Shown one piece after another: positions 2,224-7,631 of a DNA stretch of 60,454 nt. The DNA comes from Flavobacteriia bacterium (GTDB lineage: Bacteria; Bacteroidota; Bacteroidia; Flavobacteriales_D; Crocinitomicaceae). How positions within the stretch are numbered: the stretch's first letter is position 1; every line of letters begins with the position of its first letter. The position numbers were made by a program, and so were the translations under genes. The stretch is taken from contig JACOTM010000002.1 of assembly GCA_016178305.1 (NCBI GenBank), positions 1 to 60,454 of the forward strand, given 5' to 3'. The notes beneath the pieces are model-generated. The model was not told the origin of the DNA. It saw only the letters and a list, made by a program, of their open reading frames with translations, and ran no database searches.

Positions 2224-3561
2224 CTAATTTATACGCTCCTCTTTCGGAACAAATAATAATAGAATCAAACCTACAACAAAGAAAAAAGCGACAGATATTA
2301 TAGAAAATCTAATTGATCCTGTTAGATGTTCCATTAAACCAAAAAATACTAAACCCAATACGATTCCTAATTTTTCGGTTACATCATAAAATGAAAAATA
2401 ACTTGCATGATCGGTTGTTTCTTGTGGTAAAAATTTTGAATATGTTGACCTAGCAATTGCTTGTACCCCTCCCATCACTAGTCCAACTAAAGATGCTAAA
2501 ATATAAAATTCAACTGGTTGATGAATTATAAAAGCATAGCAACAAATAACAACCCAAATAGATACTGAAAGTATTAATGTTTTAATGTTTCCAATTTTTC
2601 CAGATAAGCGAGACATTAAAAATGCACCTAAAGCACCTAAAATTTGAATCAATAAAATTGCAATTATTAATCCTGCACTTCCATCACCACCAGGCCAATT
2701 AATTTCTTTGTTTGCAAAAATAGTCGCCATCAACATAACAGTCTGTACACCAGTATTGAAAAAGAAAAAAGAAGAAAGATATTTTTTCAATCGATGCGTA
2801 GTTTTAAATACCTTAAAAACAATTTTCAGCTCTTTAAATCCCTTCCATAAAATGCCTTTTTCTTGTTTTTTATTATAAACATTATTGGGCAATACACGAA
2901 AGGTTATTTGACTAAACCCAAGCCACCAAATGCCGACAAATAAAAAACTATATTCAGCTGGTTGGTTTAATAATTTAATCCACAACAAACATAGAATCAA
3001 TAAAATCATCGCTCCAAAATACCCCATTGAAAAACCTCGTGCTGAAATTTTATCATGTTCTTCTACTTCAGCAATTTCAGGAAGAAAGGCATTGTAAAAA
3101 ACCAAACTATTCCAGAATCCAATACTTGCAATAAAGACAAAAAACATTCCTAATTCTAAAGGAACATTTTTAAACCAAAATAAAGAGATACAAGCGGCAG
3201 AACCTAAATAACAAAAAAATCGAAGAAATTTTTTCTTTTTCCCAGAGAAATCTGCAACCCCAGAAAGTAACGGTGATAATATAGAAACTACTAAAAAAGA
3301 ACAAGCTAAAACAAATGAAAACAAAACAGAAGAAGATATTTTCATTCCAAAAAACTCAACAGTTACCTGAACATCTTTCGGTAATTCCATTGTGGAAGCT
3401 TCTTCAAGGCTAACGTTAAAGAATTGTGCTTTAAACCTATTTTTGGTCACAGCATCATAAAAAATAGGAAATATTGCCGATGAAATAACTAAATTGTAAA
3501 CTGAATTTGCCCAATCGTAAAAAACCCAACCATTTATTATTTTCTTATTTCCTTTTTCCAT
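2224..3561 (-). CDS. MFS transporter, UMF1/Atg22-like
   Basis: A 445-residue integral membrane protein with about 11-12 hydrophobic segments. The N-terminus, with FYDWANSVYN followed by a conserved Ser/Pro-rich first helix, is typical of the UMF1 (Atg22-like) branch of the major facilitator superfamily. A loop between helices 2 and 3 holds SGVADFSGKKKK, the MFS motif-A equivalent. Eukaryotic Atg22 exports amino acids from vacuoles; substrates of bacterial members are mostly unknown. It follows the dehydrogenase-like gene by 13 bases, so the two are probably co-transcribed, and it could move a substrate or product of that enzyme (inference). The length is usual for the family. Confidence 0.85.
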   Translation of the reverse strand: MEKGNKKIINGWVFYDWANSVYNLVISSAIFPIFYDAVTKNRFKAQFFNVSLEEASTMELPKDVQVTVEFFGMKISSSVLFSFVLACSFLVVSILSPLLSGVADFSGKKKKFLRFFCYLGSAACISLFWFKNVPLELGMFFVFIASIGFWNSLVFYNAFLPEIAEVEEHDKISARGFSMGYFGAMILLILCLLWIKLLNQPAEYSFLFVGIWWLGFSQITFRVLPNNVYNKKQEKGILWKGFKELKIVFKVFKTTHRLKKYLSSFFFFNTGVQTVMLMATIFANKEINWPGGDGSAGLIIAILLIQILGALGAFLMSRLSGKIGNIKTLILSVSIWVVICCYAFIIHQPVEFYILASLVGLVMGGVQAIARSTYSKFLPQETTDHASYFSFYDVTEKLGIVLGLVFFGLMEHLTGSIRFSIISVAFFFVVGLILLLFVPKEERIN

Positions 3562-3574
3562 AAATTTTTAACCG

Positions 3575-4804
3575 TTATTTATTAACCGTTTCTCCTTTCA
3601 CATATTCTTTTAAATAAGTAAAATAAGATGATAATTCTCCATTTAATGTAGTTTCACTTCCCCTATCGATAATCAGATCTGGATCTTCGATAAACATAGC
3701 TGGAAAAATATATTTCAATAATGTATTTCCAAAATCTTCAGAAGCATCTAATGGTAATTCACAAGGTAAATTGTCAACTGCCATTACAGCAATTACTCCT
3801 TCTTTCAACATATCATCTTCTGATTCTGTAATTGGATTGTAACCATAAATAGGATCTATTATGGTACTTGGTCTAATCGTACAACCAATCGCTGAGTCAA
3901 TATCACATGAAATATCTGCAACAACAGACAATCTATTATTCGGGTTTTTCAAATCTTGTCTTGTAATGATATACGGTGACTTATCACTCCAAAAATGACA
4001 AGGGATATACATATCTGTATTCTCTAAAAATCGAGAGAAAGTAGATTTATATTCGCTTGGATTTGTATAAAAATCTTTTTTATCAAAAGGTTTACCATCT
4101 TTACGACCATAATAATCTTCAACTTCTAACTGAGTAAAAATGGGTTCATTAAAAGTACCTGCTAAATATTCTTCAGGAGAAACTTCTTTAATTGGTAATA
4201 AATCCATGATTTCTCTGGCACCATTTCCTACACGTCCAAATCCAGTCAACACAATTCGTGTATCTGCTGGGAGAACAACTTTTTTCAATTCTTCTTCAAC
4301 TTCGATTCGATTTGAACATTGATTGGCATGTTTCAACGTATATAATTTATGTTTTAAACCATAAGTTAAAAAACCATTGTAAGTACCAACAATTCCGGCA
4401 TACCTTCCAAATCCAATAATTCTTTTATTTTCTTTGTTTTTTAATGCTTCGTAATCAATCAATTGAATATTCTTCTCTAAAATTGCTTGTAATAATTTTC
4501 GATTATAACTTTGTTTTTTTAAAGTATGTGAAAAGAACATGAATTTTTTATTCGGAATCAAATCGCTAATATTCACTTCTTTGACACCTGCAATAATTGA
4601 ACATTCAGTTAAATCTTCTTGAACAGTTATTCCTTCGGCAATATATTCATCATCTTTATAAGCCCTTATTGGACTCGGTTGAACGATTATCTTAACATTT
4701 GGAAATTTTGCTTCCAGCTGTTTACATTGCTTTGGTGTCAGAGGAACTCGTTTATCTGGTGGTACCTTTCCCTCACGAATAATTCCTAATTTCACGTTTT
4801 TCAT
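3575..4804 (-). CDS. saccharopine/alanine dehydrogenase-like NAD(P) oxidoreductase
   Basis: A 409-residue protein of the AlaDh/PNT superfamily. The N-terminal ~140 residues (start KLGIIREGKVPPDKRVPLTP) form the substrate-binding domain shared by alanine dehydrogenase, transhydrogenase and LYS1-type saccharopine dehydrogenase. A Rossmann segment, GFGRVGNGA, lies near residue 190. The C-terminal part, with ADISCDIDSAIGCT, resembles saccharopine dehydrogenase (lysine-forming) more than alanine dehydrogenase, but I cannot fix the substrate. It is cytoplasmic, with no signal peptide. A UMF1-type transporter lies 13 bases downstream, and the KdsC-like gene lies 87 bases upstream in the same direction, with a weak GCGAAT/ATTCGC stem between them. 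Confidence 0.8.
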   Translation of the reverse strand: MKNVKLGIIREGKVPPDKRVPLTPKQCKQLEAKFPNVKIIVQPSPIRAYKDDEYIAEGITVQEDLTECSIIAGVKEVNISDLIPNKKFMFFSHTLKKQSYNRKLLQAILEKNIQLIDYEALKNKENKRIIGFGRYAGIVGTYNGFLTYGLKHKLYTLKHANQCSNRIEVEEELKKVVLPADTRIVLTGFGRVGNGAREIMDLLPIKEVSPEEYLAGTFNEPIFTQLEVEDYYGRKDGKPFDKKDFYTNPSEYKSTFSRFLENTDMYIPCHFWSDKSPYIITRQDLKNPNNRLSVVADISCDIDSAIGCTIRPSTIIDPIYGYNPITESEDDMLKEGVIAVMAVDNLPCELPLDASEDFGNTLLKYIFPAMFIEDPDLIIDRGSETTLNGELSSYFTYLKEYVKGETVNK

Positions 4805-4891: not shown

Positions 4892-5572
4892 CTATGAATT
4901 CAATGGTTCTTTTAATAAATACGAATCTATAAATTCTCTTACACAACCTTCTCCTCCTTTTTTATTCAATATAACATCTACATGTGTTTTCACATTATCC
5001 ACGGCATCTGACGGACATGCTGAAAAACCAATATTTTTTATAATCTCTAAATCATTCACATCGTCACCAACCATGGCAACATTTTCATGTTGTATATTCA
5101 GTTTTTCACAAATATCGTTTAATATCTCCATTTTATTTTTCCTTCCGACATAAAAATGTTGAATTCCTAACATTTCAGAACGTGCTCGAACCATCTCTGT
5201 TTTAAACCCCGAAGATATTATTGCCACTTGAAAATCGCTTTTCGTTAAATGCAAAATTGCCATTCCATCTTTGGTATTGTATTTTTTAAATTGATCTCCG
5301 TTTTCGGTAAAATACATACCTCCATCTGTCATTACACCATCAACATCTAAAACTAAAAGTTTGATTTTTTCTAATTTTTTCTTCCAAAATTCCGTTTTGA
5401 ACATTGGTTTAAAAATTAATGAATGTAAATCAATATTATTTTCTTCAGCTACAGCCTGTAAATCAAAAATAGACATTTCCATTACATTCTCAATCCCAAA
5501 ATCTCCTAAAAAATCCTGAAACTCAACACCATATTTGGAACATATCCCTTTTATATTTTGATCTAAAAACAC
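4892..5572 (-). CDS. KdsC-type HAD phosphatase with N-terminal DUF1858-like domain
   Basis: Residues ~57-226 form a C0-type HAD phosphatase of the KdsC/YrbI group. Motif I is LDVDGVMTDGG with nucleophile D76 and D78, motif II is ISSG, and the acidic motif is VGDDVNDLE. KdsC removes phosphate from Kdo-8-phosphate and related 3-deoxy-ulosonates. Typical KdsC proteins are ~170 residues; this one has ~56 extra N-terminal residues with a helical pattern (YGVEFQDFLGDFGI, then FDLQAVAEENNIDLHSLI) that resembles the small DUF1858 fold. An internal ATG at codon 57 would give a standard-length KdsC, but the extension is patterned like a real domain, so I keep the long start. It lies 59 bases after a DAHP synthase gene. 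The exact substrate is not proven by sequence. Confidence 0.85.
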   Translation of the reverse strand: MFLDQNIKGICSKYGVEFQDFLGDFGIENVMEMSIFDLQAVAEENNIDLHSLIFKPMFKTEFWKKKLEKIKLLVLDVDGVMTDGGMYFTENGDQFKKYNTKDGMAILHLTKSDFQVAIISSGFKTEMVRARSEMLGIQHFYVGRKNKMEILNDICEKLNIQHENVAMVGDDVNDLEIIKNIGFSACPSDAVDNVKTHVDVILNKKGGEGCVREFIDSYLLKEPLNS

Positions 5573-5631: not shown

Positions 5632-6630
5632 TTATATCATTTTATATCCTACACTTGCTGCAACTGGTCTTAAAGATTCTAACAATGCTTTAAATTCAGC
5701 ATGATTCAATTGTTGTGAAGCATCTGATTTGGCTACTTTTGGATTTGGATGTGCTTCTATTAGCAAACCATCAATTCCCATTGCAACACAAGCTCTTGCT
5801 AAAACTGGAACTCCATAAGCATACCCCATTGCATGACTTGGATCTAGAACAATTGGTAAATTCGTTTTTTCTTGTAACCAAGCAACTCCACACAAATCTA
5901 AAGTAAATCTTGTTCCTGTTTCAAAAGTTCTTATTCCTCTTTCACACAAAATAACATTTTCATTACCTCCAGACAAAACAAACTCAGCAGCTTGAACAAA
6001 TTCTTGTAAAGTAGTACCAAAACCTCGTTTAATTAACACTGGTTTTTGTGTTTTTGCACATGCTCTCAAAATCCCTTGGTCATACATCGCTTTTGCGCCC
6101 ACTTGAATAACATCTGAATATTCAATAACATCTTGAATTTGAGTAGCATCTCTAACTTCTGTTATTACATTCAACCCATATTCTTCACGCATTTTAGCTA
6201 ATAGTTTCAAGCCTTCCAGCTCCATACCTTGAAAACTATAAGGGCTTGTTCTCGGCTTGTAACACCCTCCTCTTAAAGTACTTAATCCTAATTCCTTTAA
6301 TAATTCTGATGATTGTCTAATTTGTTCTTCTGATTCTACAGAACATGGACCACCAATTAAAACCGTATTTTTGGTATCTCCTCCTATTGTGATTCCTCCA
6401 ATTTTAACTACTCGTTTTACTGCTCTAAAATCTTTTGATGCTAATTGTATATCATTTCCAAACACCCAAAATTCTGCTGTTTTATCTTGAAGATTTACAG
6501 GAACTTCTTTCACTCCAGACCCCGTAATTAAGAAATTTTCGTTGTTTGAAATAATGTGAAATGCTTTATTTTCAGATGCTAATTGATGTACTTCATTAGC
6601 CGTTATTGTATTTTTTAATTGAATAATCAT
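5632..6630 (-). CDS. aroF: 3-deoxy-7-phosphoheptulonate (DAHP) synthase, type I-beta
   Basis: The enzyme condenses phosphoenolpyruvate with erythrose-4-phosphate, the first step of the shikimate pathway. The 332 residues divide into an N-terminal ferredoxin-like regulatory domain (~1-75), as in the Thermotoga enzyme, and a TIM barrel. Diagnostic motifs are GGPCSVE, RGGCYKPRTSPYSFQG (the DAHP version; Kdo8P synthase carries a KANRSS-type motif instead), LIKRG, CERGIRTFE, DPSHA and a final EAHPNP. No chorismate mutase domain is attached, unlike the AroG-CM fusion common in Bacteroidota, so a second DAHP synthase may exist elsewhere. Its ATG overlaps the stop of the upstream epimerase-CBS gene (ATGA), implying translational coupling. 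Confidence 0.93.
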   Translation of the reverse strand: MIIQLKNTITANEVHQLASENKAFHIISNNENFLITGSGVKEVPVNLQDKTAEFWVFGNDIQLASKDFRAVKRVVKIGGITIGGDTKNTVLIGGPCSVESEEQIRQSSELLKELGLSTLRGGCYKPRTSPYSFQGMELEGLKLLAKMREEYGLNVITEVRDATQIQDVIEYSDVIQVGAKAMYDQGILRACAKTQKPVLIKRGFGTTLQEFVQAAEFVLSGGNENVILCERGIRTFETGTRFTLDLCGVAWLQEKTNLPIVLDPSHAMGYAYGVPVLARACVAMGIDGLLIEAHPNPKVAKSDASQQLNHAEFKALLESLRPVAASVGYKMI

Positions 6631-7631
6631 AATTCACTTTTAATCAGATTTACAAAAGTAACAATTCCTGATGCTTTTCCATCTATTTTTAACACTGGCA
6701 AATACATTATTGGAAAAGAACAACTTTTTATTAATTTCAATAAATCAAAAACAGTTTCATTTTCAAGTATATACTTCGGATTTCTATTAATTATTTCTTC
6801 AACATTAATTTGATTTAAATCTGAAATTGAACTTAATAATCCTTTTCGAACGTCAGCATTTGAAATTAATCCTTTAAAATTTTGTTCTTCATCCACAACC
6901 AAGCAAAATCCTAAATTGCCTTTTTCAATCGATAATAATACTTTTTCTAGAGTCAATTCACTTTCAGAAACTACAGGTGATTCACTTAAAGGAATCATGA
7001 AATCTTTAACTTCAAACTCAGACTCTACCTCTCTTTTCGTTAGATTCATTAAAGCATGTCCAATACTCGGAGCATTAAACAAATAAGAACCAGAAACAGA
7101 AGAACTGACCCCCATATTGCGTAAAATAAATGATACTTCTGCATTTACTCCCCCGTCAACATGAATTGATTTTCCTGGATATAGTTTCCTGAAATTACGT
7201 ATTTTAGAAAAATTATAAGTATCAAATTTACCTCCGCTTTGACCAGGAATGGTTGCCATAATCAAAATAAAATCAAATTCTTGATATGCTGTAAAAACGT
7301 TTATATCTGTTGGTGTAACAATTGCCAATCCTTTTTTTCCTTGAATACAATCTGGAATTTCTAATGGTTGCTTTAAATCTTCAAATTGAAAAGTAAGGTA
7401 TTCAACAGGGTTTTCTTCAAGTAAGGTATAATATTTTGAAGGTTCTTCAGTAATAATATGTAAATCAATCGGTAAATCACACCATTGCCGAATCATTTTA
7501 ATATCTTCAAAAACTGAAATATCATCGTTACAATCTACATGCAATAGTTCAATTTGATGTTGTTTTAAATCTTCAATCACCTCTTTAAGTGGTCTTTTTT
7601 TATCACTATAGATAGATGCCGATATTTTCAT
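6627..7631 (-). CDS. ribulose-phosphate 3-epimerase-like barrel fused to a CBS-domain pair
   Basis: Residues ~1-190 match the RPE TIM barrel: ISAS start, LLHVD (H31, D33), IDLHI (H58), a PGQSGGKF phosphate loop, HVDGGVN (D159) and VSGSYLF. These include the metal-binding and catalytic residues of RPE, so catalysis is plausible. Residues ~197-334 form two CBS motifs (FMIPL...VVDEEQNFKGLISNADVRKGL and EIINRNP...LPVLKIDGKASGIVTF), an adenosyl-nucleotide-binding regulatory module. Ordinary RPE is ~220 residues without CBS; CBS pairs are normally found on the arabinose-5-phosphate isomerase KdsD. The next gene, DAHP synthase, overlaps by 4 bases. It is first in the operon; a TATCTTTA box lies about 22 bases upstream. 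I infer an allosterically controlled epimerase feeding 3-deoxy-sugar-acid synthesis. Confidence 0.82.
   Translation of the reverse strand: MKISASIYSDKKRPLKEVIEDLKQHQIELLHVDCNDDISVFEDIKMIRQWCDLPIDLHIITEEPSKYYTLLEENPVEYLTFQFEDLKQPLEIPDCIQGKKGLAIVTPTDINVFTAYQEFDFILIMATIPGQSGGKFDTYNFSKIRNFRKLYPGKSIHVDGGVNAEVSFILRNMGVSSSVSGSYLFNAPSIGHALMNLTKREVESEFEVKDFMIPLSESPVVSESELTLEKVLLSIEKGNLGFCLVVDEEQNFKGLISNADVRKGLLSSISDLNQINVEEIINRNPKYILENETVFDLLKLIKSCSFPIMYLPVLKIDGKASGIVTFVNLIKSEL

Follow-up and report, generated by a model that had tools for sequence, protein, structure and literature searches.

Introduction

The sugar that anchors the outer-membrane coat, lipopolysaccharide (LPS), is 3-deoxy-D-manno-octulosonate (Kdo), and the usual route to it runs through KdsD, KdsA, KdsC and KdsB. 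KdsD and its relatives KpsF and GutQ have a SIS domain as their catalytic part and also carry a pair of CBS domains. Ribulose-phosphate 3-epimerase (RPE) inverts a carbon beside a carbonyl by way of a metal-bound enediolate; AlsE, which has an RPE-family barrel and no CBS pair, interconverts allulose 6-phosphate and fructose 6-phosphate. Here we describe a gene whose product joins an RPE barrel to a CBS pair that, by structure, resembles that of KdsD. It lies in a stretch of 60,454 nucleotides from a Flavobacteriia bacterium of the family Crocinitomicaceae (assembly GCA_016178305.1, contig JACOTM010000002.1, positions 1 to 60,454), hereafter the window, and is referred to as the RPE-CBS fusion.

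We favour, with moderate confidence, the interpretation that the fusion is a non-orthologous replacement of KdsD which heads Kdo synthesis in the Crocinitomicaceae, a group of aquatic bacteria, and in a few neighbours. That the synthase encoded next to it replaces KdsA is proposed as the best reading of the operon. The fusion would take the same place in the presumed pathway as KdsD, its CBS pair appears similar, and the two are mutually exclusive in their distribution; it differs in having an RPE barrel where KdsD has its SIS domain. Among the open-licence PubMed Central (PMC) papers listed in our searches, none dealt with an RPE-CBS fusion or, for Bacteroidota, with KdsD-free synthesis of Kdo; the first-pass annotation of the window knew of no described enzyme of this build.

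An RPE barrel joined to a CBS pair

The fusion gene is encoded on the minus strand and specifies 334 amino acids from an ATG; over 6627-7631 the plus strand contains stops throughout, so that the open reading frame (ORF) is that of the minus strand. The first-pass annotation had read the product as an RPE barrel with a C-terminal CBS pair, and both domains are indeed found above their Pfam cut-offs: Ribul_P_3_epim (PF00834) over residues 2-185 with 77.2 bits (cut-off 21.1), and CBS (PF00571) in two stretches with 44.8 bits (cut-off 24). The features of the gene are:

6627-7631, minus strand: RPE-CBS fusion gene
7041-7631, minus strand: RPE-like TIM barrel, residues 1-197 (PF00834; predicted structure)
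7539-7541, minus strand: metal ligand H31, aligned with H33 of the genome's own RPE
7533-7535, minus strand: metal ligand D33, aligned with D35 of that RPE
7512-7529, minus strand: stretch remodelled beyond the metal-binding strand, from N35 (Met in RPE) to residue 40; the six conserved lid residues that RPE has next are missing (alignment)
7458-7460, minus strand: metal ligand H58, aligned with H66 of that RPE
7155-7157, minus strand: metal ligand D159, aligned with D175 of that RPE
6639-7013, minus strand: CBS pair, residues 207-331 (PF00571; structure matches to KdsD pairs)

An AlphaFold2 model computed from an 80-row alignment has a mean pLDDT of 88.7 and a pTM of 0.83. Among solved structures, RPEs lie nearest to the barrel (5umf, Z 21.6; 2fli, Z 21.4), followed by AlsE (3ct7, Z 20.3).

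We aligned 109 distinct RPE-CBS ORFs, that of the window included, to 22 canonical RPEs drawn from the same taxonomic order. Residues H31, D33, H58 and D159, to which the first-pass annotation had drawn attention, are invariant in all 109; His/Asp/His/Asp at these positions are, we assume, the metal-binding residues of RPE. As judged from this invariance, the barrel is probably catalytic. Several glycines, presumably those of the phosphate site, are retained as well. The rest of the pocket is altered. Five replacements relative to RPE occur in every one of the 109 ORFs (M68I, H90Q, G144S, Q146G and E173H), two more take one of two forms (M37N in 104 and M37K in 5; F143Q in 104 and F143E in 5), and the six-residue lid of RPE (PNISFG) is gone from all of them. 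In a phylogenetic tree, RPE-CBS and canonical RPE form two separate groups (support 100/100). The fusion also falls below the equivalog cut-offs of both RPE (TIGR01163, 74.2 against 212.6) and AlsE (PRK09722, 36.1 against 271). The second, ordinary rpe that the first-pass annotation had suggested looking for is present: this genome (3.6 Mb, 99.99% complete) encodes it on another contig (G000:C124:17993-18583, 262.8 bits). The fusion is a paralogue of a normal rpe, with which it has the fold and the four metal ligands in common and from which the lid deletion, the pocket replacements and the C-terminal CBS pair set it apart.

Relatives spanning the entire fusion were found in 47 of the 150 genomes of the order that made up our profile sample, the window's own genome included; the copy in G055 is split across two contigs. 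In a sample of 395 genomes of the phylum, the fusion occurs in two only, both of the window's family (E up to 1e-25). A scan of genome contigs with the single fusion protein as query returned no relatives; with the alignment as query it returned 379, of which 80 were kept for locus analysis, and the records among these 80 loci include Fluviicola and Crocinitomicaceae. The 109 distinct homologous ORFs rule out a sequencing artefact or a pseudogene, and one of the 80 loci (L105) has an in-frame stop. Plasmid origin was also considered and rejected, as just short DAHPS-type matches were obtained, in three plasmid records. Some records titled Kuenenia, Chryseobacterium, Actinomyces and Chitinophaga (L079, L080, L082, L128, L132) carry the fusion gene at 69-84% identity; these titles are probably wrong automatic names of metagenome-assembled genomes.

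A conserved operon with a synthase and a phosphatase

On the minus strand the fusion gene is followed by two genes that, together with it, offer one candidate for each step of the pathway that is missing (KdsD, KdsA), plus a KdsC-type phosphatase:

6627-6630, minus strand: 4-nt stop/start overlap of the fusion gene and the synthase-like gene, indicating translational coupling (ORFs; conserved in relatives)
5632-6630, minus strand: enzyme resembling type I-beta 3-deoxy-D-arabino-heptulosonate 7-phosphate (DAHP) synthase (DAHPS), 332 aa with an N-terminal extension, proposed to be a Kdo 8-phosphate (Kdo8P) synthase (PF00793, 227.9 bits; TIGR01361)
4892-5572, minus strand: KdsC/YrbI-type HAD phosphatase with an N-terminal extension of about 65 aa (TIGR01670, 164.7 bits, cut-off 106.95)

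Of 20 loci taken from the sampled genomes of this taxonomic order, 18 have the arrangement RPE-CBS, DAHPS, KdsC; one of the others is dispersed and one is cut by a contig edge. The arrangement recurs at 74 of the 80 genome-contig loci, and the other six end before the next gene is visible. The two sets of loci partly overlap. The 4-nt overlap between the fusion and DAHPS genes is likewise kept, at 16 of 18 scorable loci in the first set and 73 of 78 in the second.

Mutual exclusion with KdsD

Within the 150 genomes, RPE-CBS occurs in 41 of the 42 belonging to the window's family and in six from three other families. KdsD was called in 87 genomes (E up to 1e-30), 44 of them above the curated cut-off of the model. 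A third architecture, in which a transaldolase/fructose-6-phosphate-aldolase domain (TAL/FSA) precedes a CBS pair, is present in nine. At the threshold of the KdsD call, on which any statement of zero overlap rests, no genome holds more than one of the three. The seven genomes with none are G145, where a contig edge interrupts the operon, and six that are 57-90% complete. Counted by genus (n = 57), RPE-CBS occurs in 17, KdsD in 36, TAL/FSA-CBS in 3 and none in 1, the KdsD figure coming from the search tally and the others from a manual count. Were the rows independent, zero overlap between RPE-CBS and KdsD would have a probability of 1.6e-25 over genomes and 4e-11 over genera; they are not independent. 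More useful than these values is that families f3, f8 and f10 each hold both KdsD genera and RPE-CBS genera.

A KdsD hidden elsewhere in the window's own genome was sought with TIGR00393 (KpsF) at E up to 1e-3; the model matched only the CBS pair of IMPDH (42.3 bits), the fusion (31.8) and a GmhA-like SIS protein (22.1). As a separate observation, many genomes of the order have SIS-only KdsD proteins of about 200 aa that lack the CBS pair, several of them encoded beside kdsA (e.g. L063:4808-5410); their matches to the KdsD model span about 150 residues.

The remainder of the Kdo pathway

No KdsA above cut-off was detected in any of the 47 RPE-CBS genomes. Where the place of a match to the KdsA model is listed, it is a DAHPS-type gene with 116-138 bits, mostly that of the operon and another DAHPS in G096 and G102; in G082 there was no match at that threshold because a contig end truncates the operon. 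The later enzymes are retained. KdsB was found in 45 of the 47 genomes and PF04413, which we take to be WaaA, in 46 (41 of 42 each in the window's family; 5 and 6, respectively, of the six outsiders). The KdsB proteins of nine family and two outsider genomes keep the conserved motifs of 11 controls (QGDEP, FSR, H-G-Y, LE..E.LEQ and D.PED), presumably contact residues, and the best solved matches of the KdsB of the window's genome are KdsB structures. Since KdsB and WaaA are retained and the KdsB motifs are kept, a sugar of the cytidine monophosphate-Kdo (CMP-Kdo) type is probably still made and used in these genomes.

The CBS pair

The first-pass annotation had likened the CBS pair to that of KdsD. 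Structure comparison and the local profile test point the same way; family models give a mixed picture. The CBS entries among the 50 structure matches listed are KdsD pairs only (3fna, Z 15.6; 4o9k, Z 15.3; 3k2v, Z 15.1), and by Foldseek alone the KdsD pair 4o9k, which to our understanding was solved as a complex with CMP-Kdo, is the top CBS chain. A profile of ten KdsD CBS pairs from the order gave 64-76 bits with TAL/FSA-CBS and a median of 36.9 with RPE-CBS (111 rows, one without a match; 40.2 for the window), above the 23.0 bits of the genome's own IMPDH, the one other CBS family included in these tests. In the reverse direction, a profile of fusion CBS pairs placed KdsD rows at the top (25-42 bits for 12 of the 13, 19.3 for the remaining one), with IMPDH at 18.7 and TAL/FSA-CBS at 14-21. 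The match of TIGR00393 to the window protein is confined to the CBS part (model positions 157-267 of 268) and includes no SIS domain. All 16 A1 members match the KpsF model and 15 of them that of CbpB. Some RPE-CBS proteins (L050, L051) read GNGDLR at a site that is TDGDLRR in KdsD and SNADVRK in the fusion of the window. Descent of the fusion's CBS pair from KdsD is likely.

The partner synthase

KdsA and type I-beta DAHP synthase belong to one superfamily with the partner, which has DAHPS-type loops and the N-terminal extension. It differs from the known enzymes in belonging to a kds-linked group with altered motifs, GAKAMYD and DPSHAMGYAYG; the corresponding motifs of two trp-operon DAHP synthases are GARNTQN and DPSHGIGIRK. 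Delimited by a score of at least 325 bits (the remaining matches score 214-242), this group occurs in 57 of the 150 genomes, namely the 47 with RPE-CBS, G145 and nine that have KdsD and KdsA. The kds-linked gene adjoins kdsD and kdsA in G035, G063 and G093 and a kdsC-like gene in G028. In a tree of FL-DAHPS, the sequences from RPE-CBS genomes fall into a single clade (96/97), and those from the three outside families group together (96/89); a tree of RPE domains places the outsiders differently, with three genomes of the window's family outside them, at weak support. The window's genome has two more DAHPS genes, which differ from each other (G000:C11:1908-2627 and C92:12460-13179; L007, L008) and appear by eye to be fused to chorismate mutase, so aromatic synthesis need not rely on the operon gene. 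One publication describes Kdo8P synthase as a target for drugs (PMC6650799).

A second fusion in genomes without KdsD

The TAL/FSA-CBS architecture (PF00923 with a CBS pair) was found through the genomes that have neither KdsD nor RPE-CBS. One of its nine copies is cut by a contig edge and one is visible as the CBS half only. The following copy may serve as an example:

L068:4718-5728, minus strand: TAL/FSA-CBS fusion (also L159-L167)

The gene stands between kdsA and a kdsC-like gene in G004 and beside kdsA in G075, and eight of the nine genomes have a KdsA. Two members scanned with the KpsF model gave 55.7 and 69.2 bits over their CBS pairs. TAL/FSA-CBS is an independent case of this type of CBS module attached to a different catalytic domain. 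As a precedent for the aldolase fusion, FsaA makes arabinose 5-phosphate (A5P) from glycolaldehyde and glyceraldehyde 3-phosphate (PMC9947464). In the five TAL/FSA-CBS genomes whose KdsA was inspected (L066, L067, L068, L075, L166), it reads KDNR where the other KdsA proteins inspected read KANRS or KANRT.

Proposed function and alternatives

The replacement of KdsD by the fusion is argued from what the genomes contain: the domain architecture, the operon, the exclusion of KdsD, the lack of a standard KdsA, the presence of KdsB and WaaA, and the altered pocket. From these we infer the substrate and product of the barrel, the ligand of the CBS pair and the descent of that pair. In the scheme that we propose, a re-tooled RPE barrel would stand in place of the SIS domain of KdsD, ahead of a KdsD-like CBS pair, and its metal-bound enediolate chemistry would yield D-A5P from a central pentose phosphate. 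The reaction would be either C2 epimerization of D-ribose 5-phosphate (R5P), an inversion of the alpha-carbon like that by RPE at C3, or isomerization of ribulose 5-phosphate (Ru5P) to A5P, as by KdsD. The coupled DAHPS-like enzyme would condense A5P with phosphoenolpyruvate instead of KdsA, the KdsC-like phosphatase would then remove the phosphate, and KdsB and WaaA, which are not linked to the operon, would activate and transfer the sugar, respectively. The CBS pair would sense a product of the pathway and not energy charge, with CMP-Kdo as the likely ligand.

R5P and A5P differ solely at C2, the neighbour of C1. They are 1-nor analogues of the two sugars interconverted by AlsE, which may be regarded as a chemical analogue. 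Consequently, an R5P 2-epimerase would require the least change from known chemistry. To our knowledge no enzyme catalyses this reaction, and a search of the open-licence PMC literature found none. By this analogy the barrel could be a D-R5P 2-epimerase that makes A5P for Kdo, so that a single order would carry one kind of CBS sensor for the Kdo pathway on three catalytic domains unrelated to each other, a SIS isomerase, an RPE-type epimerase and an FSA/transaldolase-type aldolase; we put this forward tentatively, as a possibility that we regard as rather doubtful. If true, a single committed step would be served by three chemistries that share a regulator. The recurrence of a regulatory CBS pair on two further catalytic domains, in just those genomes that lack the usual enzyme, would exemplify the modular takeover of a committed metabolic step. 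A whole family that appears to lack both standard first enzymes of Kdo synthesis and keeps the downstream ones also offers a ready genetic test of a new route to A5P. Annotating such genes merely as ‘ribulose-phosphate 3-epimerase’, ‘transaldolase’ or ‘DAHP synthase’ may mislead.

Several observations weigh against the replacement of KdsD and KdsA by this operon. Nearly half of the KdsD calls (43 of 87) lie below the curated cut-off, mostly SIS-only proteins of about 200 aa, and shared ancestry inflates the P values for exclusion. The closeness of the CBS pair to KdsD is not uniform: in the Foldseek search AMP-bound CBSX2 and other CBS proteins score close behind 4o9k, on TIGR00393 the CBS pair of IMPDH outscores the fusion, and the best family model of the window's pair is CbpB (39.0), above KpsF. 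The genome has two further KdsC-like genes above cut-off. The partner synthase is the weakest link. It exceeds the DAHPS cut-off (TIGR01361, 323.4 against 267.75), falls below that of KDO8P_synth (TIGR01362, 132 against 314) and retains the DAHP-type loops KPRTS, where KdsA has KANRS, and DPSH. Because nine genomes hold a kds-linked DAHPS in addition to KdsD and KdsA, there at least it is not simply a substitute for KdsA. Either the partner takes A5P or the operon yields another ulosonate, and the absence of KdsA from RPE-CBS genomes could mean that the product of the barrel is not A5P.

An operon for a different ulosonate, which we consider unlikely, would have the barrel act on a four-carbon aldose (erythrose 4-phosphate, E4P, to threose 4-phosphate) or some other sugar; the DAHPS would keep a pocket of E4P size, KdsC would dephosphorylate the product, and KdsB and WaaA would handle an analogue of Kdo. 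The loops and model scores of the partner just described would fit this scheme, conversion of E4P to threose 4-phosphate would be an exact 1-nor analogue of what RPE catalyses, and KdsA is lacking above cut-off wherever RPE-CBS occurs, whereas the TAL/FSA-CBS genomes, with one exception, have it. However, the KdsB of RPE-CBS genomes retains the standard motifs, A5P is known to be accepted by type I-beta DAHP synthases that have these loops (P. furiosus), and we know of no such lipid A sugar.

The first-pass annotation had proposed an RPE under the control of energy charge. A true Ru5P 3-epimerase, setting the supply of xylulose 5-phosphate and E4P for the adjoining DAHP synthase with CBS domains that sense adenosine nucleotides, would agree with RPE as the best family and fold, with the conserved metal ligands, with a DAHPS-like neighbour and with AMP-bound CBSX2 among the close Foldseek matches. 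This explanation appears very unlikely, for it has to contend with an ordinary rpe in the same genome, with pocket replacements and a lid deletion in all 109 homologues and with KdsD pairs standing first among the CBS entries listed, and it leaves both the exclusion of KdsD and KdsA and the KdsC gene unexplained. A plain RPE with an energy sensor was set aside as the leading reading on account of the ordinary rpe and the changed pocket. The architecture noticed in the first-pass annotation is thus confirmed and its interpretation partly supported; the function is re-read as replacement of KdsD because an rpe lies elsewhere, the RPE equivalog cut-off is missed, the pocket and lid are changed, and genome context and phylogenetic profile fit the Kdo pathway. 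Least probable among the explanations considered is that A5P comes from another enzyme, such as the isomerase domain of GlmS/GFAT, and that RPE-CBS has a different role in the operon or only regulates. GFAT genes of several species complement an Escherichia coli A5P-isomerase mutant (PMC11301363). A supply of this kind would give no account of RPE-CBS and TAL/FSA-CBS standing where KdsD is missing, and the invariant metal ligands suggest that the barrel is itself catalytic.

Neighbouring genes

The N-terminal extension of the KdsC-like phosphatase (window 5375-5572, minus strand; L071:4816-5013) resembles a degenerate Xre helix-turn-helix. HTH_3 matched the extension of L071 with an E value of 0.0023 and 18.4 bits, below the cut-off of 23, and a profile of the extension had no significant match in the Protein Data Bank. 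In many relatives the operon is followed by genes for an AlaDh/PNT-type protein (3575-4804 in the window, minus strand) and an Atg22-like protein of the major facilitator superfamily (2224-3561, minus strand). A homologue of the AlaDh/PNT-type protein was noticed by eye near the TAL/FSA-CBS gene of G060 (L192:6392-7597).

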